A DNA stretch of 64,000 bases from Argopecten irradians (taxonomy: Eukaryota; Mollusca; Bivalvia; Pectinida; Pectinidae). Shown here in pieces: positions 29,301 through 64,000 of the stretch (position 1 is its first letter; every line of letters starts with the position of its first letter). Location of the stretch: positions 38,647,338 through 38,711,337 of the forward strand of contig NC_091134.1 in NCBI RefSeq assembly GCF_041381155.1, read 5' to 3'. A program made the position numbers and the translations under genes. The notes beneath the pieces were generated by a model. That model was given only the letters and a program-made list of their open reading frames with translations, was not told the origin of the DNA and searched no databases.

Positions 29301-29717
29301 AATAATAGTTTGCTGTTGGCAAACATTTTTGCTGCGTCAAGCCAAATATGAAAAATTTGCTTAAAAATTACCATTTTTGAGCTTAAAATCCGATTTTTTC
29401 ATTTCCTGCGTAGAAATAACTATATATATTGGATTATATGGTCCTGATATGTATTTGTTGTTCTATTGTGGTCATTTTGATGCCTCATTTGTCTTCTTCG
29501 GTTGAAAAATGTCAATGTTATGACTATTTTTCAATCTTTAGTGAAATTCGAGATGGCGGCCATCTTGATGACGTCATAACCGAAAGTTCATCCCAGTTTA
29601 TACAATGTTGCCTCTCGATTTCGTTATCAGTGGGTCATAAGGGTTCCGAAAAACATTGGTTCGTTAAGGGGGGGGGGGGTGGTGCACGTAGACCCCCCCC
29701 CCCTAGATCCCGGCCTA
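26311..29717. mobile_element. 3.4-kb foldback (palindromic) element inserted in an FN3 exon
   Basis: Termini are taggccgggatctagggggg on the left and ccccccctagatcccggcct followed by a on the right. ATA flanks both sides (26308-26310 and 29718-29720). Almost the whole element is an inverted repeat: each arm is about 1.6 kb and they meet around 27.9-28.0 kb. Left arm 26360-27250 matches right arm 28770-29690 closely; the inner parts (27250-27900 and 28010-28770) match with more divergence. Each arm holds a tandem pair of about 360-bp units with tgacgtcatcaagatggccg. Poly-C/G tracts lie inside both ends. Mirror-image ORFs occur in both arms. No known transposase was recognised. Confidence 0.85.
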
Positions 29718-42789: not shown

Positions 42790-43402
42790 GAGGGGACCTT
42801 CGATAACGTCTTATTAGTGTGACCGTCACCTTCCTGTTCTGTTATGACATACGTGGGGTGACCATCATTTGTACAAATTATAACCTTATAAAGGACTCGC
42901 GGATCACCTTCCTGGTCTGTTATGGTATGGTAGGGTGACCATTATTTGTACAATTATAACCTAATACAGGACTCACCTTCTTGGTCTATTATGACGAACG
43001 TTGGGTTGCGGTGATCGTCAATTGTACAGTTATAACCTAATACAGTACTCGCCTTCCTGATTTGTTATGACGTACGTTGTGTTGGGATGACCGTGTACAA
43101 CTATAACTAATACAGTACTCACCTTCCTGGTTTGTTATGACGAACGTTGTGTTGCGATGATCGTCCATTTGTACAATTATAACCTAATACAGTACTCGAC
43201 CATCCTGGCCTGTTATGACCTACGTACGTTGTGTTGTGTTGTAAATTTACCTGACTCCTCCTGGCGTATGAGCACGTGGTTGGGGTGACCATTACCTGTA
43301 CAATTTTAACCTAATACAGGCCTCACCTTCTTGGTCTGTTATGACATACGTTGTGTTGGGGTGACCGTCACCTCTACAATTATAACCTAATACAGGACTC
43401 AC
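42790..43402 (-). repeat. Donor-spanning tandem array next to FN3 domain 5
   Basis: About seven units of 68-77 bp repeat the last ~45 bases of the neighbouring exon (tgttatgacgtacgttgtgt read on +), its donor (ctcaccttcctgg) and about 30 bases of intron (acaattataacctaatacag). gttatgac-type motifs recur at about 42843, 42987, 43066, 43134, 43211, 43337 and in the exon at 43414. Donor versions include GTGAGT, GCGAGT and decayed forms. Confidence 0.85.
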
Positions 43403-43601
43403 CTTCCTGGTCAGTTATGACGTACGTTGTGTTGGGATGACCGTCTCCTGCATCATTTACGGCCAGCACACTAACAGTGTAGTTGATGTAAGGATTCATG
43501 GTGGCCACAGTATAAGTGTAGCTATCTAGGTCTGCAGGTAGAATTACTACTGATAGTTTGTCGCCTGCTCCACATGAACTGGCAGACAGGAAAAGTGAAT
43601 A
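43403..43601 (-). CDS. FN3 domain 5, C-terminal exon
   Basis: TTTGCAG|TATTCAC to CAGGAAG|GTGAGT. The frame reads YSLFLSASSCGAGDKLSVV, then DSYTYTVATMNPYINYTVSV and LAVNDAGDG. P-Y-x-x-Y-T-V-x-V-x-A-x-N is the FN3 F-strand signature. It starts in phase 0 and ends in phase 1. Its 3' end is the source of the tandem array at 42790-43402. Confidence 0.85.
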
Positions 43602-43913
43602 CTGCAAAAATGAAATTAATGCATTTTTTCATCATTCACTACTATCATGAAGATGCATTAATAAACAGTGTATGAACAAAAATGATAATAAACTGTTAAT
43701 TCATTTTTATTTCATGGATAGATAATTAATTTCACAAAATTTAAGATAAAACAATGAACTAAGACACCTAGCTTTAATCAGAAAAGAGATTACTATTGAT
43801 ATATATTTCTTATTCTTAATACTTGTAAACACCAATATATAATGTAGATATATATTTTACGATAAAAAACTTAATTCCTTACCCCCGGACATGATGTACA
43901 TGTAAAGAGAAAC

Positions 43914-44056
43914 CTCACGGACACATGTGCTCCCATCTAGTACTGTGAGTCTGTACCCTCCTAGGGCACCATTGGTCACTGCAGGTAGTGTCCAGTTCAG
44001 AGTAAACTGTCGACTTAGTATCTGTGATACGACCAAGGTTTCTGGCGGAAGTGACA
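43914..44056 (-). CDS. FN3 domain 5, N-terminal exon
   Basis: TCTTTACAG|TGTCACT leads in phase 1 to SLPPETLVVSQILSRQFTLN, then WTLPAVTNGALGGYRLTV and STCVRE. I end it at CGTGAG|GTTTCT because that is phase 0, as the next exon requires. A stronger-looking donor 31 bases on (CCGGGG|GTAAGG, exon start 43883) ends in phase 1 and would break the join. Confidence 0.7.
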
Positions 44057-44199
44057 CTGTAAAGAAAGCACAATTAGAAATACAAAAGGTCCATGTGCCT
44101 TAACAGTCTCCTGATATTTGATACAAATTAGTTATGTAATATACTAGCAAACTGATGTCTTTTATTCACGAAATAGAAACATACATCTACATACAAAGT

Positions 44200-45110
44200 T
44201 TAATTAAGCTTGGTGTTTATTCAATCGCATAACAGCGTTCGCAAGGTTCAATAATTATTAGTCCAAAGGGCAATAACTCCGTAAATAAGTTAGAGTCAAA
44301 TCAAGCTTATTTTCAAACTTGTTCTAGATATTTCCAATGTAAGTCTATATGCAAAGTTTCGAAATAATTCAATAATTATAATTGCAAAGTGCAGTAACTT
44401 CGCAAGTTACGATCTGATCAGGTCGATTTTCGAACTTGTCAGAGATCTTTCCTATTTTAGTCTAAATACAAAGTTTCATGAAGCTTAGTGCATATTTATT
44501 CAAGTAATTGTATTCACAAGGTCCAATAATAATGATTTACAAACTCGTCCGAGATATTTCTAATGTTATTATACACACAAAATTTCATAAAGCTCTGTTC
44601 ATATTTACACAAATTATGTGTTCACAAGGTTCAATAATTATTATTGCAAAGGGCAATTACTCCTTAAGTTACGAACGAATCGTGTCGATTTTTGAATTTG
44701 TCAAAGATCCATCCACTGTTAGTATACATACAAAGTTTCATTAAGCTCGGTGCATATTTACTAAAGTTATCGCGTTTACAAGGTCCGATAACATTTTTAG
44801 TGCAAAGGCCAATAACTCCATTAATTACCGTCGAATCAAGCTGATTTTCAAGCCCGGTTAAAATCTTTTCAATGCCTGTCTACATACAAACTTTCATTAA
44901 GATTGGCTCATATTTATTAAGTTACCGCGTTCACAAGGTCCAATAGCAATAACTCCGTAAATTAACCGTTGAATCATGCTGCTTTTTTACCTCGTCTGAG
45001 ATCGTTCCAATGTTAGTCTACACATAAAGTTTTATTAAGCTTGGTTTATATTTACTAAAGTTATTACGTTCACAAGGTCGAATAATAACAAGTACTCATT
45101 GTAATGGACA
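44200..45110. repeat. Tandem repeat, about 140-165 bp unit
   Basis: Repeated phrases are gttcacaaggtccaataat, gcaaagggcaataactccg, aatcaagctgattttc and tacatacaaagtttcatta. Related units resume at 45660-45950, ending with gacggacgaggcacgacgat. Confidence 0.85.
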
Positions 45111-45349
45111 CCATTACATAGTCTCCCTCCCCTTCCCCATCCCCTGCTGCAACAAATCAAGAATGCAGTTGCTCAGTGTATGAACATTCATCTTGGGAAA
45201 ATTTTGATGTACTTTTATATTGGAATTCAGGGTCTCCTAAAATGTACATAACTAATACAAGACTATCTCAGAGGAATTGATTTGGCAGTTATCATGACTG
45301 TATGGCATCCCTTAAAAGTTTAAGTTAAAACTCCCATTTACCAATTTTC

Positions 45350-45665
45350 AATGAATTTCAGACGAAAATGTTAAAACAGGGAGTTGGCCAAGCGACAATC
45401 TTTCAATTTTTTTATCATATTGATCAGCATCGCTTAATACCCCTACATACCAATTTTCATTGCGATCGGAGACCGAAACCTGAAAACAGGAAGTGGGCCA
45501 GCGACCATCTTGGAATAGCAAAATCTTTACGAAAATATTTACATGTTGTTCGTCATGCCTTAAAACCCCTATAGAACAATTTTCATTGAGATCGGAGACT
45601 GAAACCTGAAAACAGGAAGTGGGTCAGCGGCCATCTTGGAATACCAAAATCTTTACAAAAATGTT
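45350..45665. repeat. Tandem repeat, about 125 bp unit
   Basis: Two to three units share accaattttcattgcgatcg, gaaacctgaaaacaggaagt and gggccagcgaccatcttgg. The block sits between two parts of the 'caaggtccaata' repeat. Confidence 0.8.
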
Positions 45666-46039
45666 TGTTTACAGTCGAACCAAGCCCATTTTCGAACTGG
45701 TCCAAGATCTTTCCAATGGTAGTCTACATACAAAGTCTCGTTAAGCTGAGTGCATATTTACTGATGTTATTATGTACACAAGGTCCAATAATACTTATCT
45801 TTGCAAAGGGCAATTTCTCTGTAATTGACTGTCGAATCAAGCCGATTTTCGAATTTGTCCTATATCTTTCCAATGGTATTCTACAGATAAGGTTTCAATA
45901 AGCTCAGTGAATATTTAATAAAGTTATCGCGTGCACAACAAGGAAATGTTAATGGACGTCGCACGACGGACGAGGCACGACGATGCACTAAAGACTATCA
46001 CAATAGGTCCCTATGACCTATGGTAATGTGACCTAACAA

Positions 46040-46620
46040 GAAGTTCATGAGCTTAAACGGTCATCTGACTATTGACACAAACAGCACAGTCAAAGTATAC
46101 AGTAGGGCAAAATAACTTTGCATCAATATCAGGTCCCTAGGCCTCTTAATTATTAACAAGAAAATTTTAATCATTTTGTCCAATGTGAATGCAGGTCAAG
46201 GTCGTTCATTTGCAGAAACTTCATAAGCCTTCACCCCAACACGTAACAGACTTAACATCAGGTCTCTAGGACTCTTAGTTTTTCACAAGAAGACTTTCAA
46301 AGAGTTTAGCCTGTTAGACTTTTGTGACCTTGAATGGCAAATGGTCATTTATTTAAAAATTTAGTAGCCCTTCATTCCAGCATTATATGGCTAAATATCA
46401 GGTCACTAGGCGTCTTATAGTGATTCACAAGAAGTCATTCATAATAGTTTAGCCTATTTGACACCTGTGACCATGATTGGCAGTCAAGGTCATTCATTAG
46501 AACAAACTTTGTAGCACTTCATTCCAGCATGCTAGAAGCCAAACATCAGTATCCTAGGTCTTTCGGTTATTTAAAAGAAGCTGTTTTAATGAAAAGTTTA
46601 AGCACGGCGTACGGCGAAAA
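46040..46620. repeat. Tandem 'tgacccctgtgacc' family, block 3
   Basis: About four diverged units with gaccttgaatggcaaatgg, aggtcattcattagaac, ttcattccagcat and tcacaagaagtcattc. Same family as 6740-8070. Confidence 0.8.
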
Positions 46621-46879
46621 AATACAAAATTTACACCTTTGTTTAATTTATATGTTTATTTCTGATGGCTACCATTGAAAGTACTAAGATAATTTAAATA
46701 CAACAAATTTTTCTTAACAATTAGTTATAAAAAATCAATGACGTTAGGGACCAAAAAGGGCCTAAACCACACATAAGAGGCCTTTAACCACTTTACCATT
46801 CTTAGCCTGGGTTTGAAGCGTTAAGCAGAACTTAATATGAACACCTAGAAAAGCTATTTCTTGTATGTGCTTTACTTAC

Positions 46880-46981
46880 TGGCGGCTTTAGTAGCACATC
46901 CTAACATGGAGCTGAATGAACTTTGGTTGGTCTCTGTCACTGCATCATTGACTGTAGCTATGTTGAATGTGTAATACATCG
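46880..46981 (-). CDS. FN3 domain 4, C-terminal half exon
   Basis: TTTCAG|CGATGTA to CCGCCA|GTAAGT. The frame reads MYYTFNIATVNDAVTETN, then SSMLGCATKAA. It is a close paralogue of the 25028 exon. Phases are 1 and 1, joining 48319-48507 and 43914-44056. Confidence 0.85.
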
Positions 46982-47559
46982 CTGAAATGAAAATTAAGTA
47001 AATGGTTTGTTAAGGGATGGAAAGGTAAATGGTCAGGTGGGGTTTTTAATGAAAAAAGGAGTACAACGAAAAAAGGAGCATTTTGATACTCCAGTTTGAT
47101 AATATCCAGGCCCTCACCATCACTTCTCCTAAATTATAATATAATCATTAAAAACAAATATGATGGTTCTAGCATTGTAAAGTGTTATTTCAACCAGTAT
47201 GTTTAACTAAGCAATAAACCATTTAGGGCTGCACCTATATGGTACTTTTTCTGATTCTCTTCATTCTTCATTTTAACCATTGCTTAAGAATGATCTACAT
47301 GTCAGATGCACCAAAGAAGACCAGGGACTTTTAGCTTTTATGGACAGAGAATTGACAAATGTAGGATGTTAAGTGATTTGAATAGTCCATCATTTTCTGG
47401 AACTGGTCATACACACATAGTAGGGGAATTTCACAAGGCTTATAGTTAGCATTAATTATTGCTATCAGAAATTTGTTTTGGAAATCCACATTTCCATAAC
47501 TATTGAATGAAGAAGAAAACACTTAATTAGTTGACAAAACTACCTAAAGGTAGGGATCT

Positions 47560-48240
47560 TGGCGCCCACCAAAGATTATATCTGACAATGGAAATAGGGA
47601 TCTTTTCTCTGTTTTTTTAACTTTAACAATCAAAATCCAATCCGCCATCTTGTTGAAATTTGAGAGTGATCCCTTGAGTACTTCCTGGGAAATAGTGGTA
47701 AAAAACTTCAACTATCACAATCCAAAATGGCTGTCTAACCGCCATCTTTTAACCGATCGGTCCTAACATGCAATGTGCGCAAGTAGGGTCATAAGGAAGC
47801 ATACATATGGAATTTGAGAATGATCCCTTTAGCACTTTTTGAAAAATAGCGGTAACAAACTTTTAACTATCAAAATCCATGATGTCTGCCTGGCGACCAT
47901 CTTGTTAACCGATGTGTCCGAAAACTGCAATATGCACAAATATGGGAAACATATATATGAAATTTGAGAACGATCCCTTCTGTACTTTCTGAGAAAAAGT
48001 GGTAACAAACTTTCACTATTAAAACCTGGCAGCCATCTTGTTGACTGACTGATCAGTCTCAAAATGCAATATGCACAACTAGGGCCTTAGGGGAACCTAC
48101 ATGTGAAATTTGAGAAAGATCCTATCAGCACTTTCTGTGAAAAAGCAATAACAAGAATTGTTAACGGACGAAAAGGCGGTCGGACGACAGACCACGGACG
48201 AAAAACGATTTGAATTGCCCACCATCTGATGCCGGTGGGC
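47560..48240. repeat. Tandem repeat, about 165 bp, four units
   Basis: Units share aatttgagaatgatcccttt, gcactttctgagaaaaag, ggtaacaaactttcactatc and gccatcttgttgacc. The block ends with a gacggacgaaaa-type head and gcccaccatctgatgccggt followed by gggct, a hairpin typical of the family end. Confidence 0.85.
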
Positions 48241-48318
48241 TTAAAAATATAATGAACAAAACTATTAATATTAATGTTATGTATTTAAGATATTGGTTTT
48301 AATGTAACTTAACCTCAC

Positions 48319-48507
48319 CAGCCTGTAGCCCACTAGCCACAGTATACTCGGTTGTACTGGATGTCGTGGTAAACAAAGCACCGATATCAACTCTCTGTAC
48401 CACGTAATACTGGATATCTCCTCGTGGTAGTGATGGAGCTGTCCAGGAGAGGGTGATAGATTGGTCAGTTGTGGCATGACAGGTAAGTGATGTAGGAGGA
48501 TCAGGGG
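48319..48507 (-). CDS. FN3 domain 4, N-terminal exon
   Basis: ACTTCCAG|CCCCTGA to CAGGCTG|GTGAGG. The frame reads PDPPTSLTCHATTDQSITLS, then WTAPSLPRGDIQYYVVQRV and TTEYTVASGLQAG. It holds the FN3 P-P...L...W-x-x-P core. Phases are 1 and 1. It is the intact paralogue used to interpret the disrupted exon at 26251/29718. Confidence 0.9.
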
Positions 48508-48747
48508 CTGGAAGTAAAAATGATATTCAACATGTTTACACCAAAAGTAATTAAAAATATATCAAAAAAAGTGATCTAGGAAAAAAATCAAAGGTTTGAA
48601 AATACAAATTTCCTATATTCAATATAGCCTATATAAGTTCTCTCCCTAAGTAACAACTAGTACATAGCAAGATATATACGATATATAAGTTAAGATATGT
48701 AGTGTTGTTTACAATATATAACAGTATAAACATATTATAATTATCAA

Positions 48748-49222
48748 ATTTGTTTGTTTGTTTGTTTGATTTATTAACGTCCTATAAACAGCTATGGTCA
48801 TGTAAGGACGGCCTCCTATGTATGCGGTGTGTTGGGTGTATGTTGTGCGAGGTGAGTGTACTGGGAGACTGCGGTATGTTCGTGTTGTGTCTTCTTGTAT
48901 AGTGGAACTGTTGCCCTTTTTATAGTGCTATATCACTGAAGCATGTCGCCGAAGACACCAAGCAACACACCCCACCCGGTCACATTATACTGACAACGGG
49001 CGAACCAGTCGTCCCACTCCCTGTATGCTGAGCGCTAAGCAGGAGCAGAAACTACCACTTTTATAGACTTTGGTGTGTCTCGGCCAGGGGACAGAACCCA
49101 GAGCCTTCCTCACAGGGGCGAACGCTCAACTCAAGGCCAAAAGTGAGGCGGTGCCAAGTGAGGCATTAGGAAAGATAAAGTCAGTTAGGAAGAAGAGAAA
49201 AGATAAGATCCTAAATATCAAA
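48748..49222 (-). mobile_element. SINE-like retroposon, copy on the minus strand
   Basis: Tail (tttgtttgtttgtttgattt) at the left, head missing at the right (ends gataagatcctaaat). Blocks ctgagcgctaagcaggagc and gtgtgtctcggccaggggac match copies 1-3 in reverse complement. Confidence 0.8.
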
Positions 49223-49789
49223 AATGATGTCACCATATTCAAGTATGGGTCTTATATAAGCATTATATATTGTGATGAATGTTTTGCGACTCATTATTTA
49301 ACAGACTCAAGTAAGTTAATACGCTTACTTGCTTTATTATAGATAAAATTTATATGATGAAGCCACTTACCAACTTCAGAGAAGAAAACACCAAGATGTT
49401 TATGATTAGATACATTTTCCACAGTTTCAGTTTAAAAAGCAATATCAGAAATGATAATATTTCTTTTCCGACTAAAAGTTACAGATTCTGTTTTTGAAGG
49501 ATTAAACTTTATATATCCCATTTCTTTGACCATACATTTACATTTTCTAAGTCATTAGATAGACTAGTAGCTGTTTCTAGCGGAGTAGTATCTATTACTT
49601 TAAAAAGAGATGTATCATCAGCAAAAAGTCACTTTTCATTTGTTATACCTTCAGTTATATCATTTATATAAATATAAATTTCCTATATTTGATAGGTAAT
49701 GCAAATAATTCCAAATAATAAAACAGTTTCAGAAAAAAAATATATAATTGATTAATTACATGCTTGTACATATTAGAGATGCTGAAGAT

Positions 49790-50352
49790 TATGGATTCTG
49801 TATCACGTACTTACTTTTGGACACTGACCTGAAGGTAGCCACCAGAGGATCACTCCTCTCACTACCACTGACTGTGGTAATAGAGATGTTGTTGTCCATC
49901 TATTACACCTGTACTGTAGGTTATAGATTCTGTATCATGTACTTACTTTTGGACACTGTCCTGAAGGTAGCCACCAGAGGATCACTCCTCTCACTACCAC
50001 TGACTGTGGTAATAGAGATGTTGTACCTCTGTCCATCTATTACACCTGTACTGTAGGTTATAGACTCTGTATCATGTACTTACTTTTGGACACTGTCCTG
50101 AAGGTAGCCACCAGAGGACCACTCCTCTCACTACCATTGACTGTGGTAATAGAGATGTTGTACCTATGTCCATCTATTACACCTGTACTGTAGGTTACAG
50201 ATTCTGTATCATGTACTTACTTTTGGACACTGTCCTGAAGGTAGCCACCAGAGGATCACTCCTCTCACTACCACTGACTGTGGTAATAGAGATGTTGTTG
50301 TCCATCTATTACACCTGTACTGTAGGTTATATATTCTGTATCATGTACTTAC
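49790..50352 (-). repeat. Donor-spanning tandem array next to FN3 domain 3
   Basis: Four extra copies of a 137-bp unit (two lack 5 bases, 132 bp) follow the exon at 50353-50614. Each contains the last ~125 bases of that exon (in the gene sense: SITYSTGVIDGQRYNISITT, VSGSERSDPLVATFRTVSK), the donor GTAAGT and a few intron bases. acttacttttggac occurs at 49809, 49941, 50078, 50215 and 50347. The unit length is not a multiple of three. Confidence 0.9.
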
Positions 50353-50614
50353 TTTTGGACACTGTCCTGAAGGTAGCCACCAGAGGATCACTCCTCTTAC
50401 TACCACTGACTGTGGTTAATAGAGATGTTGTACCTCTGTCCATCTGTAACACCTGAACTGTAAATTATATATTCTGTTGCTGTAGTGGTGGGGGTAAGTG
50501 ATGGTGTAGTGATAACGTCATAACTAGTTTTGATGCCACTAGGTAGAGTCCAGATTAGCACTATTGTTGGACCATCAACATCTGTTGCTAAAAATGATGT
50601 CGGTGTTGCTGGCA
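50353..50614 (-). CDS. FN3 domain 3, single exon with a one-base insertion
   Basis: ATTGTAG|TGCCAGC to CCAAAA|GTAAGT. The frame reads PATPTSFLATDVDGPTIVLI, then WTLPSG and YSSGVTDGQRYNIS, and then shifts to a stop because of an extra base near 50416 (ggttaat; all four tandem copies have ggtaat). Without that base the exon is 261 nt, phase 1 to 1, and fits the next exon. The insertion may be real or an assembly error. Confidence 0.8.
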
Positions 50615-51051
50615 CTACAATCAATAGTTTATATATAAGTGTTTTATAAAAAACACCTGGTATACAGGAGAATAGTTAAACTGGAGACACTTTGACTGTT
50701 GAATGAAAATACAAAAACCTCTACAAATCTAATATAATGTGATAAAGTCTTGCATTTGTTATCTGTTCTGTTTAAAATTCCAGTATGTCTATCATTATCA
50801 TCTACATCTTTCAAAACTAAGATTTTCGTTATTTCCAACATTATAAATAAAACATGTAATGAAGGAATTAGACCCTGTTTTAACTAGCGATATCTTGCAT
50901 GCTTATATATCACATCTGAGGTATACTTGAACATAACTAAGTTGTTAAAAAGTGTCTATGCATCTAGCCTAACTAATGTAATAATGTTGACTCTTAGATT
51001 ATTATGCTGCTTGTATTTTAGTAAATTATGCAAAAATGTACATTTCAGTTT

Positions 51052-51322
51052 CACAGGGGGCCAACTCAATGAAATGGATTTTGTCATTCATTTTTGTATT
51101 TGGAGGATGGACTGATGAGTATATATGACAGTCATGTGATTTTTTTCAATAAATACGAGATTTGAAAAATTATTTAAAAAATCGGGATATTTACTTTAAT
51201 AATTTTTCAAATCTCGTATTTATTGAAAAAAATCACATGACTGTCATATATAATCATCAGTCCATCCTCCAAATACAAAAAATGTTTGACAACATCCATT
51301 TTCATTGAGTTGGTCCCCTGTG
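51052..51322. repeat. 271-bp near-perfect palindrome
   Basis: The left arm cacagggggccaactcaatg ... ttggaggatggactgatgag ... aatacgagatttgaaaaatt (51052-51170) is repeated in reverse complement at 51200-51322. The loop is about 30 bp. Few mismatches, so the arms are young or maintained. Confidence 0.85.
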
Positions 51323-52275
51323 TTCAGTTTAGCAAATCCACAGGGTTCCGTACATATTTCTGTAACCAAATAACATTGCCACTATGTTTACCTGTGCATC
51401 TGTAGATACAAGGAGCGCTTATTTATACGGATTCGGCTTTACAAAACCATACACTTTTTACCTAGTCATGTCAATGGTGGTTGTAAATCATATCATGCTA
51501 AAATATACAAACAACACAATGCTTTACGAGTCAATATTATTACTTATGGTTAGGTCCAATGCATAGACACTTTTTATTAAGTAATTAATATTCAAATACG
51601 CCTAAGAAGTATTATATAGAGAACAACTAACTAAATGAAAAAAAGACATTCGAAATGGCATGTGTGTATACAAGATTGAGCCTAGGATAGAATTTTAACC
51701 CGGCCGCTGATTGGCTGGCTAATTACGAATTTCAAAAGTAAAAGTGTTTTCTGGCAGGTAATTATTCTTAGATAACTATGATATGAATTTGGAAATTCAA
51801 ATTGAGATATAGGTTCGAAATATCAATTTTGATAATGAATAGGTAAAAACATTATAATTTCAGGATTTTTTAGTGCAAAATACGCCTAACTTAAACATGG
51901 CTACCCTGGTTGGAGTTTGAGCTGAAGTACCAAAAATTTTTTTTTCGATCTAGTGTTTTTTTGAGAACCTAGACTTTAATTATAGAGCACAATAGCTAAC
52001 AAATATTCCTTATTATCCTTATTGTTCCTAATATCACAGGGTCTAAAACCTTAAGGTAAGAATATAAGTCATAATCGTAGTTGTCGCGATATAAAATCTA
52101 AATATGGGTGATGAACATGACTTACACCACATGACCTTTATATCATATGTTGGGGACATAAAAATGTTTTGTTACAGTGAAACATATATCTTTGTTTTGA
52201 TGCAATCACATTTTAGTTAGAGCATTGACGAATTTTCACATTCACACTTGTTTTTGTTTTACCAGATTTACAGTA

Positions 52276-52707
52276 TACAGTAAAACCCCGTTATATTGCT
52301 ATCCCGCTTAGTATCACCCTGAATGTATTCAGAACGGATTTCCCTCCATGTAAGTACACCCGCTATATACCGCCAAACTCGATATGTTTTCCAATTGAAG
52401 GTTGTACTCAATAGAGTGTGGCACTTGTGAGTAATTATACACCCAATGGAATTTATCTCTATGCCGAACAAGTGCGTCTCATCATTCTATAACACAAGAG
52501 AAGTTTTTCGCTGATTAACCCAAAATTTGGAATCTAAAACAATGTCTTCTAGTAAAATCATAAGAAGTCTAGAAGATTCCTTACAATGTAAAATTTCTAT
52601 AAAATTCATGCTTGCATATTCTTGGCAGGATTATACAAAAGACACACAAGACACATCTTTAAAATTATCCCTGAAAATAGGTGGTGGAGATTTAACGGGG
52701 ATTTTTT
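52276..52707. mobile_element. Possible pogo/Tigger-like remnant
   Basis: cagtaaaaccccgttatatt at the left and ttaacggggatttttttag at the right look like inverted ends of about 16 bp. Between them a plus-strand stretch encodes ISIKFMLAYSWQDYTKDT, which resembles the W-x-x-V-T-x-x-T helix of pogo/CENP-B-type proteins. Weak; termini uncertain. Confidence 0.4.
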
Positions 52708-53284
52708 TAGTATTTCGTCTTGAACGCTATAGTATATGGTACTAAATGATAGAAAGTTGACAAATATCATAACTCAAAGTTAACTTAAAGGCTATTAGAA
52801 CTGGGGAACTGAAGCTAACATTATGTCAGATGTCAGTATTACTTGTACATGTAACATGATTCTGAAATTAGATTTCCTACCATCTTAACGGTCATCTTAG
52901 TGTTAACTCGTTGTATATTATTATGACCACTGGATTTCACCAGGATTATATAATTAAGACTTTGTTATAAAGGATCTCGAAAGTATTGTTTCCAGCAAAC
53001 TACTAGAAGATCATTATTTTTTGTATGTTAACTTATCCTACTTAAGCCTCGTCCGTAGAGTAAATCAGAGTCAATGTCCATAATGTTTATCTTCTATCTG
53101 ATTCTGATAATTCTACCAAAGTTGTATTTTATAGCATAATTGACCCACTGCCTGGCGGAAAACCTGAGACTCCAGGGTCATACAATGTATTTGACCTCCT
53201 CTGATTTTACTACTTACAAACCTTTGTTGAAGCTATTGTCCCCACAAGGCTGACAGATATTTGTTTTTTTGTGTTTTTTTTTAT

Positions 53285-53455
53285 TAAATAGCATCATATT
53301 AACAGCCAGGCTCAGGTAAAGACGGCCTCCCATGTATGCAGTGTGTAGCGAGTATGAAGTGCGAGGTGTGTGTTTTTGGAGATTGCGGTATGTTCGTGTT
53401 GTGTGTTCTTGTATAGTAGTACTGTTGCCCTTTTTATAGTGCTATATCACAGGAA
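53285..53455 (-). mobile_element. SINE-like 3' fragment on the minus strand
   Basis: aagacggcctcccatgtatg, gcgaggtgtgtgtt, gcggtatgttcgtgttgtgt and ctttttatagtgctatatca match the SINE-like tail half in reverse complement. Confidence 0.75.
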
Positions 53456-53523
53456 ATATATATTAATTTGAACTCTCTGGTGTAAGACACATGTTATTTA
53501 TCTCCTGTGATTACATTACTTAC

Positions 53524-53818
53524 ATAGTTATTGGAGAAGTAGATACTTGTGTACTCTGATCCTGATTACGAAGACTGCCAGACTCCACCGAGCTGACAGA
53601 GAAGGTAAAGGTCTGTCCTGGTGTAAACCCCACCAACTGTACAGCCGTGGTCAGCTGGGCATCGTAGAATGAGTTACCGTTGATAATTGTAGCAGGACTC
53701 CAGGACACACGGTAGCTGTTGACCTGGTCAGTGTATTCTGTAGGAGGTGTCCAGCTGATGTTGACCGTGTCTGTTCCTACCTTTACCAGTGTAATGCCAG
53801 TCACTGCCAGTGTAGACA
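53524..53818 (-). CDS. FN3 domain 2, single exon
   Basis: ATTGACAG|TGTCTAC to TAACTAT|GTAAGT. The frame reads STLAVTGITLVKVGTDTVNI, SWTPPTEYTDQVNSYRVSW, then AVQLVGFTPGQTFTFSVSSV. It is a complete FN3 domain with the SW..P core and L...P-G-x-x-Y/F-x-F-x-V. It starts in phase 1, matching the EGF exon. It ends in phase 2, while the next recognised exon starts in phase 1, so an exon or a base is missing. Confidence 0.85.
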
Positions 53819-53829
53819 CTGTCAATTCA

Positions 53830-55120
53830 TAAAGATAATATTTACTAAATAAAATGAACCAAAACTTGTTAGCCGGTAGAATAAAATATCTTTAATCACT
53901 ACAGTTATGTCAACTATATTATCACAATGTCATGTTCTGTGTCACCATGTCGATACTTCCTCTTCACATAATATGTCTAAAACTATTTTCGCATTTCTCA
54001 AATAGCATTTGATAATATTGATATTAAACAGTATGTTAAGTTCGACCAAAATATTATTTTGATAGTCCTAGTAAGTTTTTACTCTCAAACCTTAATGTTT
54101 CAAATAGACCTGTCCACGTCAATAAATCTGCATGAATATTTTTTTTGTTTTTGTGTATCGTTTGTTTTTTCGCACAAGTGCCAGGGTAAGAAAAACCTCA
54201 TTGTGACATCACAATGGTTATATGAAGTTAAATAGCGCAATAACGGCCAAAACCGGGAGCCAAAATTTAAAAGTAATGTTTAAAAATGCTCTCATAGACA
54301 ATCTGATATATAGATACATATATGAAGGATAGAGATCATTCAACCTCCGAGTCACTAAATAAGGTAAAACTGTCAGCAAAGCTTCGAGTTTGGACTTATT
54401 TAGAAACACATTGAATTGGATGGAGTATTCCTGCTCATCAGCGGACCAATTCTTGCCAGGTACCATTTCCCGCCATCGCATGTGTATTTGTCTGATTGCA
54501 CACGGATTTTCAAACAATATTTTGTAGATAGAAACGCGCATGGTAGCGTCTTTTACTAGAATATGACTTTATTTATGAATATTCGTGTATAACCAAACAT
54601 ACGATTGCGACAATTGGTACTTGGCGAGAATTGGTTGCTAGCAGGGATATTTTACCCAATGTGTTACTAAATTAGTTCAAACCCGAAGTATCTTTCATAC
54701 TCTCATAACAAAACAACTTCTCGGGGACTAAATTTCGCAATTTTCATTTCGAAACAAGTCCAGAAGATTAAATAAAATTTGTGGATTGAAATATTGAATG
54801 GAAATTGCTATCTATAAATATCACGTAGGTGTGAATTACAGAGATACACTTTCGCAAATTTACTTGGATCGCAAAATTCGCGAAAGTAAATTGCACGCGA
54901 AAGAAAGTTGGTTTACAGTAAATCCATTCCGAAATGTCATATTCCAAAATCATTTTATCTAAGTCAGAATAATATCAACAATCCTATAATTTTGCGTTTA
55001 AAATAAATTAACTGACACTGAGCGGAGTATAAAGCTACAATTGTATCAATATACAGTAGAATATAAAGCACGAACTATTTCAGACAATGATAATCACTAT
55101 TTAGTATAATTTTGTACATA
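53830..55120. other. No gene seen
   Basis: AT-rich intron of the FN3 gene. Minus-strand open stretches here show no family motif or paired splice sites I would support. Confidence 0.5.
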
Positions 55121-55121
55121 C

Positions 55122-55280
55122 TTGTGACACACATTCCCCCGGCAGTAGAATATCCATTGCTGTCGAAGTAGCCTGATATACATCTACAGACGGTGGTAGT
55201 TCCACCATCATCCTGGACACATTCAGAATTGGAGTCAGCACAGTTTATACCAACACCACAACCAACAGTGAGACCAGCAT
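55122..55280 (-). CDS. EGF-like exon
   Basis: TTTCCAG|ATGCTGG to GTCACAA|GTATGT. The frame reads AGLTVGCGVGINCADSNSEC, then VQDDGGTTTVCRCISGYF and GGMCVT. Six Cys in the order C-x5-C-x6-C-x10-C-x-C-x13-16-C fit an EGF fold. The C-x-C-x(2)-G-Y/F signature is present. Phases are 1 and 1 (159 nt). Confidence 0.85.
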
Positions 55281-55902
55281 CTGGAAAAAAGGTGTATTGC
55301 AAAATTTGTTAAAATCTATCAAATTGAAAAAAAGAAAGGTAACATGTTGTGTGTGAATTCTGCCAATATGCCCATAAAATCTGGGCCTGGTTATCAAGAT
55401 GATTTTGTAAAACTAAAAACATGTTTGATATTACATCATTTCCTTTTCAATCAACTTATAGTTGCATGCATCAATAATGGTTATGTATCATGGGATATCT
55501 TCCGCCATAAGGACATCATTTGTTTTGCTCTTTTAGAATATTTCAATTATCCAAGGGATCTGCAATCCGATTGTATCACATTCATTGACATAAGCAGTAC
55601 AATAACCCAATAAGCCAGATTTTGTTTCTTTCCATATTCTACTGAGGAATTAAACATTTGTAAATTCTATGTACGTAATACACCAATTCATTCATAATAT
55701 GTAAGCATTGCAACTAACCTATATTGCGTATGGCCATGTACACTTTTCAACACAATAGCCCACAATTACTATCAAATTAATTAACACCAAAGCAAGACAG
55801 TTTTTAGCTCGGCCATGCTTAGCTAATGCCATGATACAGTTGATCTCATATAGTAATACTTGCAAATAAGAGTTTCTATTGGCCATGAAATAAAGAACTT
55901 AC

Positions 55903-55935
55903 TGATAGTACCACAGGGCTGACTCAGCTCAGCCT
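55903..55935 (-). CDS. 33-nt micro-exon preceding the EGF exon
   Basis: ATCCTAG|AGGCTGA to CTATCA|GTAAGT. The frame reads AELSQPCGTI and joins in phase 1 to the EGF exon as ...CGTINAGLTVG. Supported by consensus splice sites and phase on both sides. Confidence 0.65.
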
Positions 55936-56089
55936 CTAGGATAGCAAACAACAAACAGGGAGAATAATTTAAAGATGGCTAAGACTTGCACGATACGCTA
56001 ATGAATATCGAATACAAGAGACTCAGAAGGCCTATATCACTCACTTGGTTTATTTAGTAATTATCATAAAACCTCTTGCAATTTGAAAT

Positions 56090-56440
56090 AGCAAAATTAA
56101 TCCTTTTGGCCCACTATTTGTACAATTTTGAATCCCCTTCCCATATTAATTGCTACAAATGCAATATGAGTGTTATCCAATTATCAGTTTCAGAGAAGAA
56201 GTTGTTTATATGGAAACAGCCAAATTGACCCATTTTGGCCCACGCACCTCAGGCCCACAGGGGGTCAGCCAAACCATTTGTACAATTTTTAGTATTATTA
56301 ACCCATAACAATGCTACCCGTCAACTTTTCTTAAATTCCGACCGGCGGTTATGAAGAAGACGATTGTTGATGGACGGATGGACGGACGCCACAGTATCAG
56401 ATATTAAGCTCACATTGGTCCTTCGGACCAGGTGAGCTAT
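56090..56440. repeat. Dispersed repeat ending ggaccaggtgagct
   Basis: ggcccacgcacctcaggccc, a gatggacggatggacggacg tract and ctcacattggtccttcggac followed by caggtgagc mark a diverged copy of the 'agctcacctgg' family. From 56441 to 59240 no gene, RNA or clear repeat was recognised. Confidence 0.6.
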
Positions 56441-59239
56441 TCAGTTAAGTCATCCAACACATATATTGACACACATTTAACTTATTTTCAAGAATCATTA
56501 TTTGTCAGGTTGCAATATAATTCTAATTTCTAGCTTGTTCATAACATCCTTTAATTGCTATAGACCAATCAATATTAATTTGTATTTTTTTGAGAATTTC
56601 AAACATAACTATATCAAATAAGCTGGGTTTTCCGCATTAAAACGAAATATCGTAATAAGTAATTCCGGACCCAATTTTAGTGAAAAATTGCATCAAAATA
56701 GTCATGTTTTCTTTTATTCTGAAAAAATGATCTCATGAATAATTGATTTTTTAGAATTTCCATGAAAATTGACCTATTTGCAATAAGAAAAGCCAATAAA
56801 AAACTATACCTCACCGCATTATTTTTCAAAATATGACCGATTCGCTTTCTAATACCCCTTAAATTTTGGCCTGAAAACGTTTTAAAAAAGCGAATCCCTA
56901 GCTAGCACATTTCAATGCTTTTTTATTCATTTACCCTTGTTAATTTTCTATATTTATTGAATATTATTGGAGCCTACAAGATAACACAATAATTACATAT
57001 CTTAATGATTTCATTTATCTATCATATATAAAATATAACAAACCAGTTTGCAAGCTACATGTATGTCTGACCTCAAACTTTCAAAAAGAGTCTAATTCAG
57101 TAAGAAATATATAAGTTTTTTTGCTCTGTGTGATACTGTATTCAAATGGATTAGTTTCCGTAATAGCATCTTTCATATCCTAAGTAAACATTTTAACAAA
57201 AAATAAAATGAAAGTATGTTCCAGCAATTTTAATTCCGTATATTGTGTCCGTTTCCGGACGAAAATTAGTATACCGGTATGTTACGATTCGTATGTATCG
57301 AAGCTCAAAACTCGAATGTTTGCATTCAAAACACCACTAACTTCCTTTCAGCATTGATATAAATGTACTGTGGTAATTAAGTTCTATCCTGCAAAAACAT
57401 AGGTACATAGTATGACGGTCATTCTGATGTTCAGTTACTAGGCCCAACTGATTCGAAGTTTTTCGTTTTGGGTCTCCGTCAAACCCATGTGTATTCCATG
57501 TGATTGTTTAGCGACCTATGATTCTTGGAATTACTTCATGCACGAATCTTCAAAATTATACTATATTTACCGGTTAGCACACAGTTCACACCTTTAGATT
57601 GGTACACGTCAAGTAAACACTCGGAAAGCTGGCAGACGAAATATTTACGGATAATAATGTAAAGGTGGGTACGGAGAAATAAAATATGTTTGCCGGGATC
57701 CGGAAAGCGACGTTACAAACGTATGACGTCACAGAAGGGACGATCTATGTTAATTGTTAATTATTGAGTAAAAATAACTTTAATCGTTTTAATACTTCAA
57801 ATTACATGAAATGCATTTTTTAAATATGAGTTGCTTCCCCTGCGCCAGTTTGAAAGTTGATGACGCGGCGAAAGTCAAACGTAACAATATTCAAGCGTTT
57901 TATAGACTGTGATTATAAACAAATGGAGGTGTTCGTACCTACAGATCAATCTTCACTCTACAATCAATTTATCGGCATAACTTTTAAGTTATTATCTCAG
58001 CGAGAATGCACAGATGATCAAGGAGATTGTGCTTAAAATGTTTGATGAATGTTTGTGTCACTCTTGTTTGTGATGCTTTCAATATACAGACTGTCTGTTG
58101 TCGTATTGAGGTAGGCCTACTGTGCACGTAGCAATGTCGAAATTATTGTTGATTTATGAATTATTCATTATTATTCTGCAGGTTCCTTATAGATATCTAC
58201 AGTATATTTGAAAATTCTTGAAAGAAATACATAGATAAATATGTAGCCTAGGCCAATTATTTTAAAAGTGGCGATTGTTTGTTACCATTCGCGCCAGTAT
58301 GATTTAAGTTTGATTTCAGATTCTTGACCAAACAAATAGGAAACAAAGAATTAATAAAGCAAATAAATGGTCCTCGATGCGATAAATTCGTTATATAGTC
58401 AGTTACTGACCCCTATAAAGGCATAGAGGGTCAGTAAGAAGTATAGGAGACTATATAACTAATATCAATGACATTTAATGACAGATTTCTGGTACAGGAT
58501 AATCTATTCTCTACACCAGACTCCAATTCAGATTTGAAAGCTTTCATCAAAAGAGTTTAGATATTGAAATTTTTAAAAATGGATCATAAATAAATCAAAG
58601 TGATATAAAGATTAAACCATGGAGATTTAAAAAATAACGGTATTTAAGTCTCTGGATGAAAAGTATTAAGTTTACTGCATTTTAGAATTTTAGCCAACAA
58701 CTGATTTATACACTATATACTATGAATGATTTTTACCGAATCTGACACGTGTTCACAACTTTTGTTGTGTATAATCAAACTTGGTCTACATTGGGAGATA
58801 GTAACTTACTCACTAAAAGTTTTCAAAATACGTCCAATGCCATAAAAACTACAAGGAAATAAACGCTTGGATTTACTTGCTATGGAAACGTCGTATCTTT
58901 GATGTAAACTACGTGACAGATAGTTGATTCGCAAGTGGCCCTATAAGGAGTATTTCTGACAGCTACATACGATACATGGTCTTTTCGAATATTCAAATAA
59001 AGTTTATCTATTCAAATCAAATTTGAATAGTGGTTGACATCCCTAATGTGCTACAACCAACATACGAAACAAAAAGAACTCAATAGCTGCTGGTTTTTTT
59101 TAATATCTACCATGTATGTGTTTTTTTTGTTTTGTTCTGCAGTGTAGTCCAGGACCCAATTTTTCGAAACAACAAACAGATAACAAGAAGATCAATAAAA
59201 ATGTTATCAAATATGAAAAAAAATGAATAAAATAAAAAA

Positions 59240-59995
59240 AGATCGTTTAACAACATTAGTCGTCCGCTTCCGTCCGTCTCGTCCGTCTGTCCGTTAAACT
59301 AATTCAAGCATTGACGCCACAAACATCCTTACTTGTGGTGACAACGCCAGCTACTAGTTCATAGAATCATGGATCAGCCACAAACATCCTTGGGGAAGGG
59401 GGAACAGAATCTTGTATAAATTCGATAAATATCAATCAGTAATACAAATTAATCCTTAGGTACAACAATCAGAACTTATCACATAAACCATTATTGCAGG
59501 ACCAGGCACTATAAAGGCCCAATAGAAGAATTATAATGATCTCAATTAATCCTATGATTTAAATCAGGGCACTAATAATCTAGAGTTTTCAAATATGATG
59601 TACAAATTTGTCCTGCCATCCAGGGGGAACACAATGTATAATTTTTTAATTCCTCTGACCCCCAACAGGAGGTCATGTTATGGATTCCCAATAATTACAT
59701 ATTTAAAATAGATTTAAATTACATAATTGACATCCGTACTTGTACTAGATTATATCATTGTCATTGTAAACAAATTTTATATCACAAACATACAGGTTAA
59801 ATGGAAAACAGACAAACAAAATTTCTTGTAAAATAAATTAATTGGTGTACACACACCAAAGGAAGGTCACCTCAATAACCAATTTTTGTTAAAATCACAG
59901 GTAAATATTAAACCAATTACTTACAGAAAAGTACAACAATCCAGTATCAAACAACATGACTTGCTTTACAAACCAGGTGAGCAATACAAGTCATA
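59240..59995. repeat. Diverged 'agctcacctgg' family copy
   Basis: It starts with a tccgtccgtctcgtccgtctg tract, contains gccacaaacatccttgggga as in 41406-42076, and ends at aaaccaggtgagcaatacaa. Many small indels relative to the other copy. Confidence 0.6.
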
Positions 59996-60261
59996 TTAAC
60001 TTACACAACTTACTTGAGGTATCACCATGTTGTTTTATAAAAATACACCACTTCCTTTAACCAGTGTACACCACAATATTACAACTTAATTCGAAACTTA
60101 TAATAACAATACACAACATGGGTATCACACAAACATGTTATAAAACAGATATGATAACTAATTACTTTGTAATAAATTTCCACCAGGTGTATATAAACAA
60201 AAACAATTTACTTGTGGTACAACATTATCAGGTTAAACTAATTCACAAGCAGGGACTTATG

Positions 60262-60545
60262 GTACACACACCACCAAATCATCAGATTCAATTTGTTGTG
60301 GAGTAAGACGACTTCCTGACTCAATTGATGTGACCTTGAATACATATGTTGGTACTTTGTGACAGCCCTGTTATAACTGCAGATGTGACTTTCCCCCACT
60401 GGGTAAGGATCCTGCTGGATTACCACCCTGTGTCCAGGTTCACAGTGTAACTAACACCTGGGAGATTCTTGGATGGTGGCAGCAATAACTTCTGTCCAGC
60501 TGATGGTAAACATCACTTGTGGTGGTGAGTCACAGGTTGATGTGC
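60262..60545 (-). pseudogene. FN3 domain 1 exon with several frameshifts
   Basis: The minus strand shows one FN3 domain spread over three frames: SPPQVMFTISWTEVIAATIQ; then VSYTVNLDTG; then SRILTQWGKVTSAVITGLS; then TYVFKVTSIESGSRLTP and DDLVVCT. At least three small indels separate these pieces. The exon end gtggtgtgtacc is the same text found in each 48-bp unit of the adjoining minisatellite. In a corrected frame it would end in phase 1 and join the micro-exon at 55903. This may be assembly noise rather than a true pseudo-exon. Confidence 0.6.
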
Positions 60546-60569
60546 AATAACAAGCTAAATTACTTGAGG

Positions 60570-63500
60570 TACACAACAATTGCCAAACCATGGTTGTAGA
60601 TATAATACAACAGGACCAATTACTTGAGGTAATACACACCACCAGGTGTAGAAACAATCAAACAACTTACTTGTGATAAACACACCGCAGGTATACTATA
60701 TCATTTCCAAAACCTTTAATGTGAGGTAGATTCAACTAACCATCAGGTGAATTACTATTAACAATTACAACATATTATCTTGTTGGTGATAATAAAATCA
60801 AATCCAGGTAATACATAATTTATAATCCTAGACACATATAATACTCAATCTAGTACCTGCATACACCATATATCTCAAAGGTGTACCTGATATTGTACCA
60901 CATTACAAACTGTAACTTGTGGTACACACTCCAACAGGTGTTACTATTATTACAATAACAAATTATCTCGATGAAAGGATTACACTCACCCCAGGTGTAC
61001 TATAAACAATACACAACCTTACTTGTGGTAACACATGATGTTGCATCAGGTATGTCTATAACAATAACACAACTTACATTGTGATACCACACACACCACC
61101 AGGTATACTATAAACAATACACAACTTAACTTGTGGTACACACACCATCAGGTGTACTATAACCAAATACACACTTATTTGTTGGTACACACACACACCA
61201 CCAGGTGTAATACCTATAAACAATACATAAAACTTACTTGTGGTACACACACCACCAGGTGTACTATAAACCAATACACAACTTACTTGTGGTACACACT
61301 CCACCAGGTGTAACTATAAACATATACACAACTTACTTGTGGTACAACACACACCAGGTGTACTATATAACAATACACAACTTACTTGTGGTACACACAC
61401 CACCAGGTGTACTTTATAAACAATACACAACTTACTTGTGGTACACACACCACCAGGTGTTACTATAAACAATACACAACTTACTTGTGGTACACACACC
61501 ACCAGGTGTACTATAAACAATACACAACTTACTTGAGGTACACACACCACCAGGTGTACAAACAATACACAACTTACTTGAGGTACACACACCACCAAGT
61601 GTACTATAAACAATACACAACTTACTTGTGGTACACACACCACCAGGTGTACTATAAACAATACACAACTTACTTGTGGTTACACACACCACCAGGTGTA
61701 CTAACAAACAATACACAACTTACTTGAGGTACACACACCATCAGGGTACAATCAATACACACACTTGTCACCACTACACCAGGTGTGTAAACTATACAAC
61801 TTAAAGGTACACACAACAGGTGTACTATTAACAATAACAACTTAACACACACACCAGGTGTAAATAAACAATACACAACTTACTTGTGGTACACACACCA
61901 CCAGGTGTATATAAACAATATACAACTTACTTGAGGTACACACACCACCAGGTGTATAAACAATACACAACTTACTTGTGGTTACACACACCACCAGGGT
62001 ACTATAAAACAATACACAACTTACTTTGTGGTACACACACCACCAGGTGTACTACTTGACTTGATGGTACACACACCACCAGGTGTACTATAAACAATAC
62101 ACAACTTACTTGTGGTACACACACCACCAGGTGTACTATAAACAATACACAACTTACTTGTGGTACACACACCACCAGGTGTACTATAAACAATACACAA
62201 CTTACTTGAGGTACACACACCACCAGGTGTACTATAAACAATACACAACTTACTTGTGGTACACACACCACCAGGTGTACATAAACAATACACAAACTTA
62301 CTTGAGGTACACACACCACCAGGTGTACTATAAACAATACACAACTTACTTGAGGTACACACACCACCAGTGTGTACTATAAACAATACACAACTTACTT
62401 GTGGTACACACACCACCAGGTGTACTATAAAACAATACACAACTTACTTGTGATACACACACCACCAGGTGTACTATAAACAATACACAACTTACTTGTG
62501 GTACACACACCACCAGGTGTACTAAAACAATACACAACTTACTTGTGGTACACACACCACCAGGTGTATAAACAATACACAACTTACTTGAGGTACACAC
62601 ACCACCAGGTGTACTATAAAACAATACACAACTTACTTGTGGTACACACACCACCAGGTGTACTATAAACAATACACAACTTACTTGTGGTATACACACA
62701 CCACCAGGTGTACTATAAACAATACACAACTTACTTGTGGTACACACACCACCAGGGGTGTACTATAAACAATACACAACTTACTTGTGGTACACACACC
62801 ACCAGGTGTATAAACAATACACAACTTACTTGTGGTACACACACCACCAGGTGTACTATAAACAATACACCAACTTACTTGAAGGTACACACACCACCAG
62901 GTTGTATAAACAATACACCACTTACAGGTACAACACCACTCAGGTGTACAAACAATACACAACTTACTTGAGGTACACACACCACCAGGTGTACTAAACA
63001 ATACACAACTTTTACTTGTGGTACACACACCACCAGGTGTACTATAAACATACACAACTTACTTGAAGGAACACACACCATCAGGTGTACAATAAACAAT
63101 ACACAACTTACTTGTGGTACACACACCACCAGGTAGTATAAACAATACACAACTTACTTGTGGTACACACACCACCAGGTGTACTATAAACAATACACAA
63201 CTTACTTGTGGTACACACACCACCAGGTGTACTATAAACAATACACAACTTACTTGAGGTACACACACCACCAGGTGTACTAAAACAATACACAACTTAC
63301 TTGTGGTACACACACCACCAGGTGTACTATAAACAATACACAACTTACTTGTGGTACACACACCACCAGGTGTACTATAAACAATTACACAACTTACTTG
63401 TGGTACACACACCACCAGGTGTACTATAAACAATACACAACTTACTTGTGGTACACACACCACCAGGTGTACTATAAACAATACACAACTTACTTGAGGT

Positions 63501-64000
63501 ACACACACCACCAGGTGTACTATAAACAATACACAACTTACTTGTGGTACACACACCACCAGGTGTACTATAAACAATACACAACTTACTTGTGGTACAC
63601 ACACCACCAGGTGTACTATAAACAATACACAACTTACTTGTGGTACACACACCACCAGGTGTACTATAAACAATACACAACTTACTTGTGGTACACACAC
63701 CACCAGGTGTACTATAAACAATACACAACTTACTTGTGGTACACACACCACCAGGTACTATAAACAATACACAACTTACTTGAGGTACACACACCATCAG
63801 GTGTACTATAAACAATATACAACTTACTTGAGGTACACACACCACCAGGTGTTATAAACAATACACAACTTACTTGAGGTACACACACCACCAGGTGTAC
63901 TATAAACAATACACAACTTACTTGAGGTACACACACCACCAGGTGTATAAACAATACACAACTTACTTGTGGTACACACACCACCAGGTGTACTATAAAC
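60570..64000 (-). repeat. 48-bp minisatellite, about 60 clear units
   Basis: The unit on the plus strand is ggtacacacaccaccaggtg then tactataaacaatacacaac then ttacttgt. Read in the gene sense it contains gtggtgtgtaccacaa|gtaagt, that is the end of the FN3 domain 1 exon and a consensus splice donor, then intron-like sequence. Units vary mainly at cttgtgg/cttgagg. The part from about 63100 to 64000 is almost uniform; 60570-63050 has many one-base indels. It continues past the window. Long ORFs here are 16-residue repeats in all frames. Confidence 0.9.

Follow-up and report, generated by a model that had tools for sequence, protein, structure and literature searches.

Why should several tandem arrays within a single gene each begin at the end of an exon and carry its splice donor? 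This question is raised by a 64,000-nt stretch of the Argopecten irradians genome (hereafter, the window), in which a sequence-only reading had proposed three arrays, each built from the end of a fibronectin type III (FN3) exon plus its donor. To our knowledge, the origin of minisatellites is rarely visible; at this locus, the birth of an array, its breakpoints and its growth are readable because the parent is a coding exon, which is often still attached. We consider it probable (roughly 0.6) that these intronic minisatellites were born at exon-donor junctions by local duplication, followed by tolerated expansion into the intron.

Three tandem arrays at exon ends

The three arrays, all on the minus strand, were recovered using TRF, and their unit sequences were mutually unrelated, as had been proposed. 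Array A (42826..43449) contains ~8.7 copies of a 76-bp unit in the window, which unit-exon alignment resolved into the last ~45 nt of an FN3 exon, a GTGAGT donor and ~25 further intron nt. Its source is an exon for the C-terminal half of an FN3 domain (43403..43601, minus strand), which ends in ..GACCAGGAAG and continues into the intron with GTGAGTCC, the first intron base, 43402, marking the donor. Array B (49782..50477; TRF and unit-exon comparison) contains ~5.1 copies of 137/132-bp units, in which ~100 nt from the second part of an FN3 exon are followed by ~33 intron nt, comprising a GTAAGT donor and ~27 further nt. Its source exon (50353..50614, minus strand), with ..GTGTCCAAAA on the exon side of the 3' junction and GTAAGTAC on the intron side, has a one-base frameshift in the window copy, which is absent at the same place in other copies of the gene.

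Array C (60981..64000) consists of 48-bp units and runs past the end of the window. Its degenerate units begin at ~60556, ahead of the TRF start at 60981, and it extends to a contig position equivalent to 69875 (L011:5875), 5.9 kb beyond the window; the total was ~187 copies in the window gene copy, including the part beyond the window, and 40 in another gene copy. The unit, ..GGTGGTGTGTGTACC(A/T)CAA followed by GTAAGTTG, combines the 3' terminus of a Cys-rich EGF/EB-like exon with GTAAGT and ~16 intron nt. The proposed composition of FN3 exon end plus donor therefore held for arrays A and B and failed for C, whose FN3 origin was rejected because the exon directly attached to the array in paralogue R3, where it is frameshifted, is Cys-rich. 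The parent exon of array C was looked for in the decayed window copy and was not found. Among the degenerate units lies a decayed FN3 exon (60277..60523, minus strand), which is frameshifted and in which an array C-like unit takes the place of the 3' end. Many one-base indels are scattered through array C, and several exons of the window copy are frameshifted. Donors without arrays were also present in the same gene, with a Cys-rich EGF/EB-like exon (55113..55290, minus strand) and an FN3 exon (53523..53841, minus strand) serving as negative examples.

Gene family and further arrays

On its Pfam domain content, the predicted gene is a fibronectin type III / EGF-like gene. Matches to Pfam fn3 exceeded the cut-off in four of five FN3 exon proteins (E 2e-12 to 6e-07), and the array A exon fell just below it (E=3e-05, 24.5 bits; cut-off, 25); the R3 ortholog of the array B exon matched with E=6e-07. 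Three of four Cys-rich exons, a set that excludes the array C parent exon, matched EB/EGF models below the cut-off, and one had no match.

Two exon queries retrieved the same five gene copies both times, and five is accordingly a lower bound. The four further copies contained two more donor arrays (D and F) and an array built on an acceptor junction (E, at an FN3 acceptor); array B was also present in all four, with ~two units in R2. Each of arrays A–F was found in two or more separate copies of the gene, which differed in array length and in which the units had diverged; copy number also differed widely among the paralogous copies (8.7 in the window vs 39.5 in R3 for array A; 25 vs 116 between gene copies for array D). 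Related Cys-rich exons had their donors amplified in units of differing length (34, 48/45, 100 and 73 bp), and donors of the gene without arrays carry an identical GTAAGT. The parent exon of array D was found in R1b and not in R2, and the array is absent in R3 and R4, where the orthologous exon has a plain donor. Contig C578 showed 89-93% identity over ~2 kb blocks and may be a haplotype or a paralogue.

Paralogue R4 (40 kb searched) lacks arrays C, D and E. Pieces of 28 bases from the units had their best matches in R4 at the Cys-rich exon end (C), the FN3 acceptor (E) and, for D and F, the respective orthologous donor. A dispersed, transposon-derived satellite was thus not indicated, as the units of C–F matched exon junctions of an array-poor copy. 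The array A piece had no match in R4 although its parent is certain in the window, which means that this 28-base search can miss true parents. For G (55 bp) and H (59 bp), which may be junction arrays, the best R4 matches (19-21 of 28 bases) were no better than chance, and searches with G, H, a 40-bp array and a 22-bp array were unproductive.

Placement of arrays relative to donors

In the gene spans, 9 of 37 arrays straddled a donor from the exon side, vs 1.16 expected by rotation, and none of 20,000 rotations gave nine. The test set comprised 40 donors; it omitted copies inside arrays, as well as three incomplete EGF exon pieces, an FN3 exon whose donor is lost and three exons for the N-terminal half of FN3. 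The nine do not include array A of R3 or the R2 array D, an orphan, because no exon donor was listed for them. Since the nine include homologous arrays of different gene copies, a type-level test was performed on 19 repeat types (grouped by hand, with array H, just outside the span, omitted), of which five were donor-derived, vs 0.41 expected by placement. Both the suspected repeated amplification of exon-donor junctions, now seen as five distinct donor arrays in the gene family, and the overlap with donors beyond chance were thereby supported. Arrays away from donors, which the sequence-only reading had named as a possible objection, do occur (14 of the 19 types, one of them E, at an acceptor; many are dispersed and small).

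Donor-motif arrays elsewhere in the genome

Four of seven donor-motif arrays sampled outside the gene look like exon-donor arrays. Two have domain support, namely L041 (mitofusin) and L039 (NIT + guanylate cyclase), and two (L035 and L040) were assigned only by an open frame and an acceptor-like start, without homology support, as the L035 exon peptide had no match and the L040 one had none in Pfam. For the other three, an exon-donor structure was not shown; one of these, L034, is without an exon and looks repeat-derived. Given the four likely cases, of which two are in domain-recognised genes, the phenomenon is not peculiar to one gene. Unit-exon alignments in which the match starts inside the exon and continues through the donor were clear for arrays A, C (R3) and F (R3) and for L035, L039 and L041; those for B, D, F (R4 and R1b) and L040 were less clean, at a fixed shift.

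A genome-wide enrichment of arrays at donors is uncertain. Donor-motif triples outnumbered those of the reversed motif (14073 vs 2216, 11097 vs 1657, 5566 vs 437 and 2540 vs 212), but this raw excess was set aside as evidence because the single donor motif already occurs 3.5 times as often as the reversed one (29141 vs 8292) and because of a near-miss control, in which 3103 of 14749 CAGGTYAGT copies (21%) were in triples vs 5566 of 29141 donor-motif copies (19%). As the near-miss motif is equally array-rich per copy, copy counts alone show no genome-wide donor excess. Acceptor-motif triples showed no excess over their reversed control (1103 vs 2480, not normalised for motif abundance). At the array level, the density on C1 was 0.77 per Mb (from the first 6.5 Mb) for CAGGTRAGT, vs 0.067 per Mb for CAGGTYAGT and 0.135 per Mb for the acceptor motif; these listings are small (5, 4 and 10 arrays), and, once corrected for motif abundance, donor-motif arrays stood to near-miss arrays in a ratio of 5.8 (P=0.011).

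Donor conservation within the arrays

Intact GTRAGT is kept in most units of arrays A, B and C. Ranked by conservation among all windows of the unit, the donor hexamer took positions 13/76, 17/76, 66/137, 74/132, 24/132, 4/48, 32/45, 13/34, 24/34 and 83/100 in the ten arrays, the extremes being the fourth best kept of 48 windows in the window copy of array C and the 83rd of 100. In array F, 20 of 29 units have lost the GT, with A as the first donor base. Selection keeping the units as donors was rejected, as the hexamer was not consistently better conserved over the ten arrays; the suggestion that the arrays form clusters of decoy donors is therefore unsupported.

Proposed origin and alternative explanations

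Under junction birth, a short tandem duplication would take in the last 10-100 exon nt, the splice donor and the first 8-40 intron nt. The 5'-most copy would still end the exon with a working donor, and the duplicate could be tolerated because the mRNA can stay unchanged. Unequal exchange or slippage may then enlarge the array into the intron, where units would decay freely; the first donor is presumably the one used, and expansion is probably nearly neutral. Duplications spanning an acceptor are expected to be rarer than those spanning a donor, because additional acceptors lying 5' of the genuine one would probably draw array sequence into the mRNA. Direct support comes from the unit anatomy, the recurrence at five donors of the family and four likely donors elsewhere, two orthologous donors at which array D is lacking and the donor decay in array F. 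Counted against this origin are the acceptor position of array E, the 14 of 19 repeat types off donors, the per-copy rate of the near-miss motif, the rank of the array C donor in the window copy (4th of 48) and the parent exons of D (R2) and C (window copy) that were not found.

The five donor types against 0.41 expected, the related Cys-rich exon donors amplified with different unit lengths and the higher C1 density at the donor motif than at the near-miss and acceptor motifs would also agree with donors being mutational hot spots, at which some process of transcription or splicing acting on the 5' splice site raises the duplication rate beyond what tolerance would account for, candidate causes being R-loops, polymerase pausing, U1 binding and the GTAAGT sequence itself. 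We regard this as rather unlikely: the densities and the abundance-corrected ratio come from few arrays, there is no difference at the copy level (19% vs 21%), and array-free donors in the same gene also read GTAAGT. Its broader form, in which donors throughout the genome act as tandem-duplication hot spots in this lineage and a transcription- or splicing-linked process seeds minisatellites repeatedly, is likewise rather unlikely; under it, if the 0.77 arrays per Mb held throughout, perhaps hundreds of introns would start with their own exon-donor array.

It is very improbable that selection keeps the arrays as functional donor or U1-site clusters, for example for long-intron splicing or the suppression of premature polyadenylation; the GTRAGT kept in most units of A, B and C and the well-kept donor of array C would fit, but the ten-array ranking, the 20 F units starting with A and the variation of array presence and length among gene copies do not. 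Chance placement of ordinary minisatellites in a genome rich in repeats, with some of them covering donors, would account for the many dispersed, small arrays off donors and for the near-miss motif being common in arrays per copy; this is highly improbable given the rotation and type-level tests, and the units begin inside coding exons, where selection should oppose random arrays. An artefact of repeats collapsed or expanded in a noisy assembly, to which the indels of array C and the frameshifted window-copy exons might point, is extremely improbable, as arrays A–F each recur with diverged units and different lengths in separate gene copies and others adjoin exons with intact reading frames; exact copy numbers may nevertheless be wrong.

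Relation to known systems

A recurrent donor-linked origin, if true, would tie the birth of repeats to gene structure and explain some long introns, and would provide a natural test, in a mitofusin gene among others, of which donor the spliceosome selects when dozens to hundreds are nearly identical. A 1995 paper (23:1854) reportedly described an exon-end minisatellite with a splice donor in each unit in one human gene (the IFI6 type). Arrays A, B, C (R3), D (R1b) and F likewise have a donor in the unit and begin at an exon end, and so do the four likely cases outside the gene, of which two are domain-supported. The IFI6 type concerns one gene, whereas five donors in one family and four likely cases elsewhere are involved here; unlike that type, the units here span 26-137 bp, the arrays reach 8.9 kb, and there is an acceptor counterpart.

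No genome-wide class of donor-junction minisatellites was reported in the titles and opening abstract lines of the papers listed by searches of open-licence literature. A study on intron gain by tandem duplication (the AGGT model; PMC4974935) likewise describes short tandem duplications involving splice signals, but no new intron is needed here, and the model was rejected for array D because the orthologous donors of R3 and R4 exist without the array. According to PMC2812944, human genes in segmental duplications carry internal tandem repeats, some of which resemble the present arrays in being variable repeats at exon-intron boundaries of recently duplicated paralogues; half of those repeats lie in coding exons, and the boundary ones can form novel introns, whereas here other gene copies have the array D donor on its own, and array growth is directed into the intron.

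Tandem arrays at the exon–intron junctions of the gene copies

The genome searched comprised 845.8 Mb in 1508 contigs, and the sequence was followed past the window (C1:38647338-38711337) as far as C1:38781337, with loci carrying related exons added. In addition to the window copy (R1a), we retrieved a second gene copy some 20–40 kb upstream of it in the gene's sense (R1b) and related copies on contig C578 (R2), at C1:38.96-39.03 Mb (R3), and at C1:42.00-42.04 Mb (R4). The gene lies on the minus strand and is a mixture of FN3 exons and Cys-rich exons of ~50 residues: Pfam fn3 scored above the cut-off in four of the five FN3 exon proteins tested, while three of the four Cys-rich exons tested matched EB/EGF models below the cut-off and one had no Pfam match. 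Exons of the window copy were frameshifted or lost at window 60277-60523 and L011:7891-8071; domain matches in R4 were mostly full-length and in frame. The pattern suggests that the window copy is a paralogue in decay, or else that these are assembly errors.

Arrays A (76 bp) and B (137/132 bp) agreed with the sequence-only reading, in which each unit joins the end of an FN3 exon to its donor and the start of the intron. Array B was found in all five gene copies, with approximately two units in R2. For array C (48 bp), which extends to window-equivalent position 69875, the same make-up of exon end, donor, and intron was recovered, but the proposed FN3 parent was not: in R3, the array, in a 45-bp version, directly follows a frameshifted Cys-rich exon whose end reads ..GGTGGTGTGTGTACCTCAA|GTAAGTTG. 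Neither this Cys-rich parent nor an intact FN3 exon was found before array C in the window copy, where a frameshifted FN3 exon (window 60277-60523) has array C-like units on either side; array C there is thus an orphan in a gene copy that looks to be decaying.

Two further arrays lie at donors. Array D (34 bp; 25 copies in R1b and 116 in R2) derives from the donor of another Cys-rich exon, which is attached in R1b, was not found in R2, and is present with a plain donor in R3 and R4. A third Cys-rich exon is the parent of array F, which has 29 copies of 100 bp in R3, two of 73 bp in R4, and two in R1b. Units of array E (38 bp; 67 copies in R3 and ~19 in R1a; C1:38982160-38984705, i.e., L022:2160-4705, and L011:6099-7098) consist of an intron acceptor end and the first FN3 exon bases, and the best match of the core was an FN3 acceptor each time (40 kb of R4, the R1b span, and all of R2). 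Judging from these matches, array E has an acceptor as its parent junction and thereby mirrors the donor arrays.

When 28-base pieces of every unit were searched against R4 without supervision, units C, D, E, and F landed on junctions and units A, G, and H gave only chance-level matches; array B provided no test, because R4 carries its own. The 55-bp array G (>130 copies at C1:38970501-38976710, in L030, and 38979354-38981102, in L030 and L022) is located upstream of a Cys-rich exon, and its unit had no exon-junction match above chance. The 59-bp array H (L011:8513-10000 into L012) lies beside a 10-base N gap and adjoins remains of the 55-bp array.

Overlap with donors exceeded chance, as the sequence-only reading had asked to be checked. 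The five gene spans total 131.6 kb and contain 40 donors and 37 merged arrays. Nine of these arrays were donor-spanning, with a start ≤150 nt upstream of the donor that they cross; when the donors were rotated 20,000 times, the mean was 1.16 and the highest count 7. Since some arrays are common to several gene copies, types were counted as well, and 5 of 19 were donor-spanning against 0.41 expected (P ~3e-5, simulation). None of the acceptors listed in the gene spans was crossed by an array; array E ends 55 bp short of one.

Probable donor arrays in other genes

Triples of CAGGTRAGT at 20–50 bp spacing numbered 5566 genome-wide, versus 437 for the reversed motif. Flanks were read for seven arrays outside the gene, drawn from the matches listed, and four of these seven had an exon-donor appearance. 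Domain support exists for two of the four: L039, with NIT and guanylate cyclase domains and a 48-bp unit of 34 exon and 14 intron nt, and L041, with a mitofusin match (Pfam 2e-8) and a 42-bp unit of 34 exon and 8 intron nt. The other two look so by an acceptor-like start, open frame, and shared exon end only: L035 has 41-bp units and a 93-nt exon open in one frame (..INWFMFYFYRFW), and L040 has 26-bp units that share ~10 nt with a 108-nt exon open in two frames. The flanks of L034 contained no exon, L037 starts next to a repeat, and L038 was read without reaching the array start.

On C1, counting motif clusters among the matches listed, CAGGTRAGT formed 5 arrays in 6.47 Mb and AAGGTRAGT 3 in 5.52 Mb, compared with 4 in 59.8 Mb for the near-miss CAGGTYAGT and 10 in 73.9 Mb for the acceptor motif; among these matches, the donor to near-miss ratio per motif abundance was 5.8 (P=0.011). 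However, the proportion of copies starting a triple was 19% (5566/29141) for CAGGTRAGT and 21% (3103/14749) for CAGGTYAGT, with 5 and 10% for their respective reversals, a disagreement perhaps arising because a few giant arrays dominate. Acceptor triples showed no excess over the reversal (1103 vs 2480, raw counts, not normalised). Because array counts favour donors and copy counts do not, these data suggest, without proving, a genome-wide origin linked to donors. A CAGGTYAGT array at C1:4938396-4941093, its motifs spaced 33 bp and 59 bp apart, may represent a decayed donor array.

The human gene IFI6 reportedly has a minisatellite supplying multiple donors. Two studies describe repeats at exon–intron boundaries of human duplicated genes (PMC2812944) and tandem duplication as a model for intron gain (PMC4974935). 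In the open-licence literature searched, we found no account of recurrence at many donors and spread over genes.

Inner donors and other repeats

Across ten arrays, the six donor columns were not consistently better conserved than the rest of the unit. In the window copy, those of array C ranked 4th of 48. In array F of R3, the donor GT lacked its G in 20 of 29 units, and array D showed drift at the fourth intron base. Use of inner donors would insert multiples of 76, 137, 34, and 100 nt (A, B, D, and F, respectively), a single step causing a frameshift; by length, the frame is preserved for units of 132 bp in B and of 48 or 45 bp in C. Read-through reaches a stop at once in L041 and is open across the first two added units in L039. 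In our reading, the arrays would mostly be tolerated passengers of the intron start.

A ~146-bp repeat forms arrays at window 6802-8074 and 17005-17765 and recurs in tandem in R2 and R3; it is a dispersed satellite, not derived from a junction. Two separate tandem duplications of ~350–360 bp, each just under two copies and ~90% alike, occupy window 26453-27133 and 28897-29563. Some 13 kb at the end of contig C578 (36695-49681) is largely a 22-bp repeat with heavy indel noise, which may have caused the contig to end.
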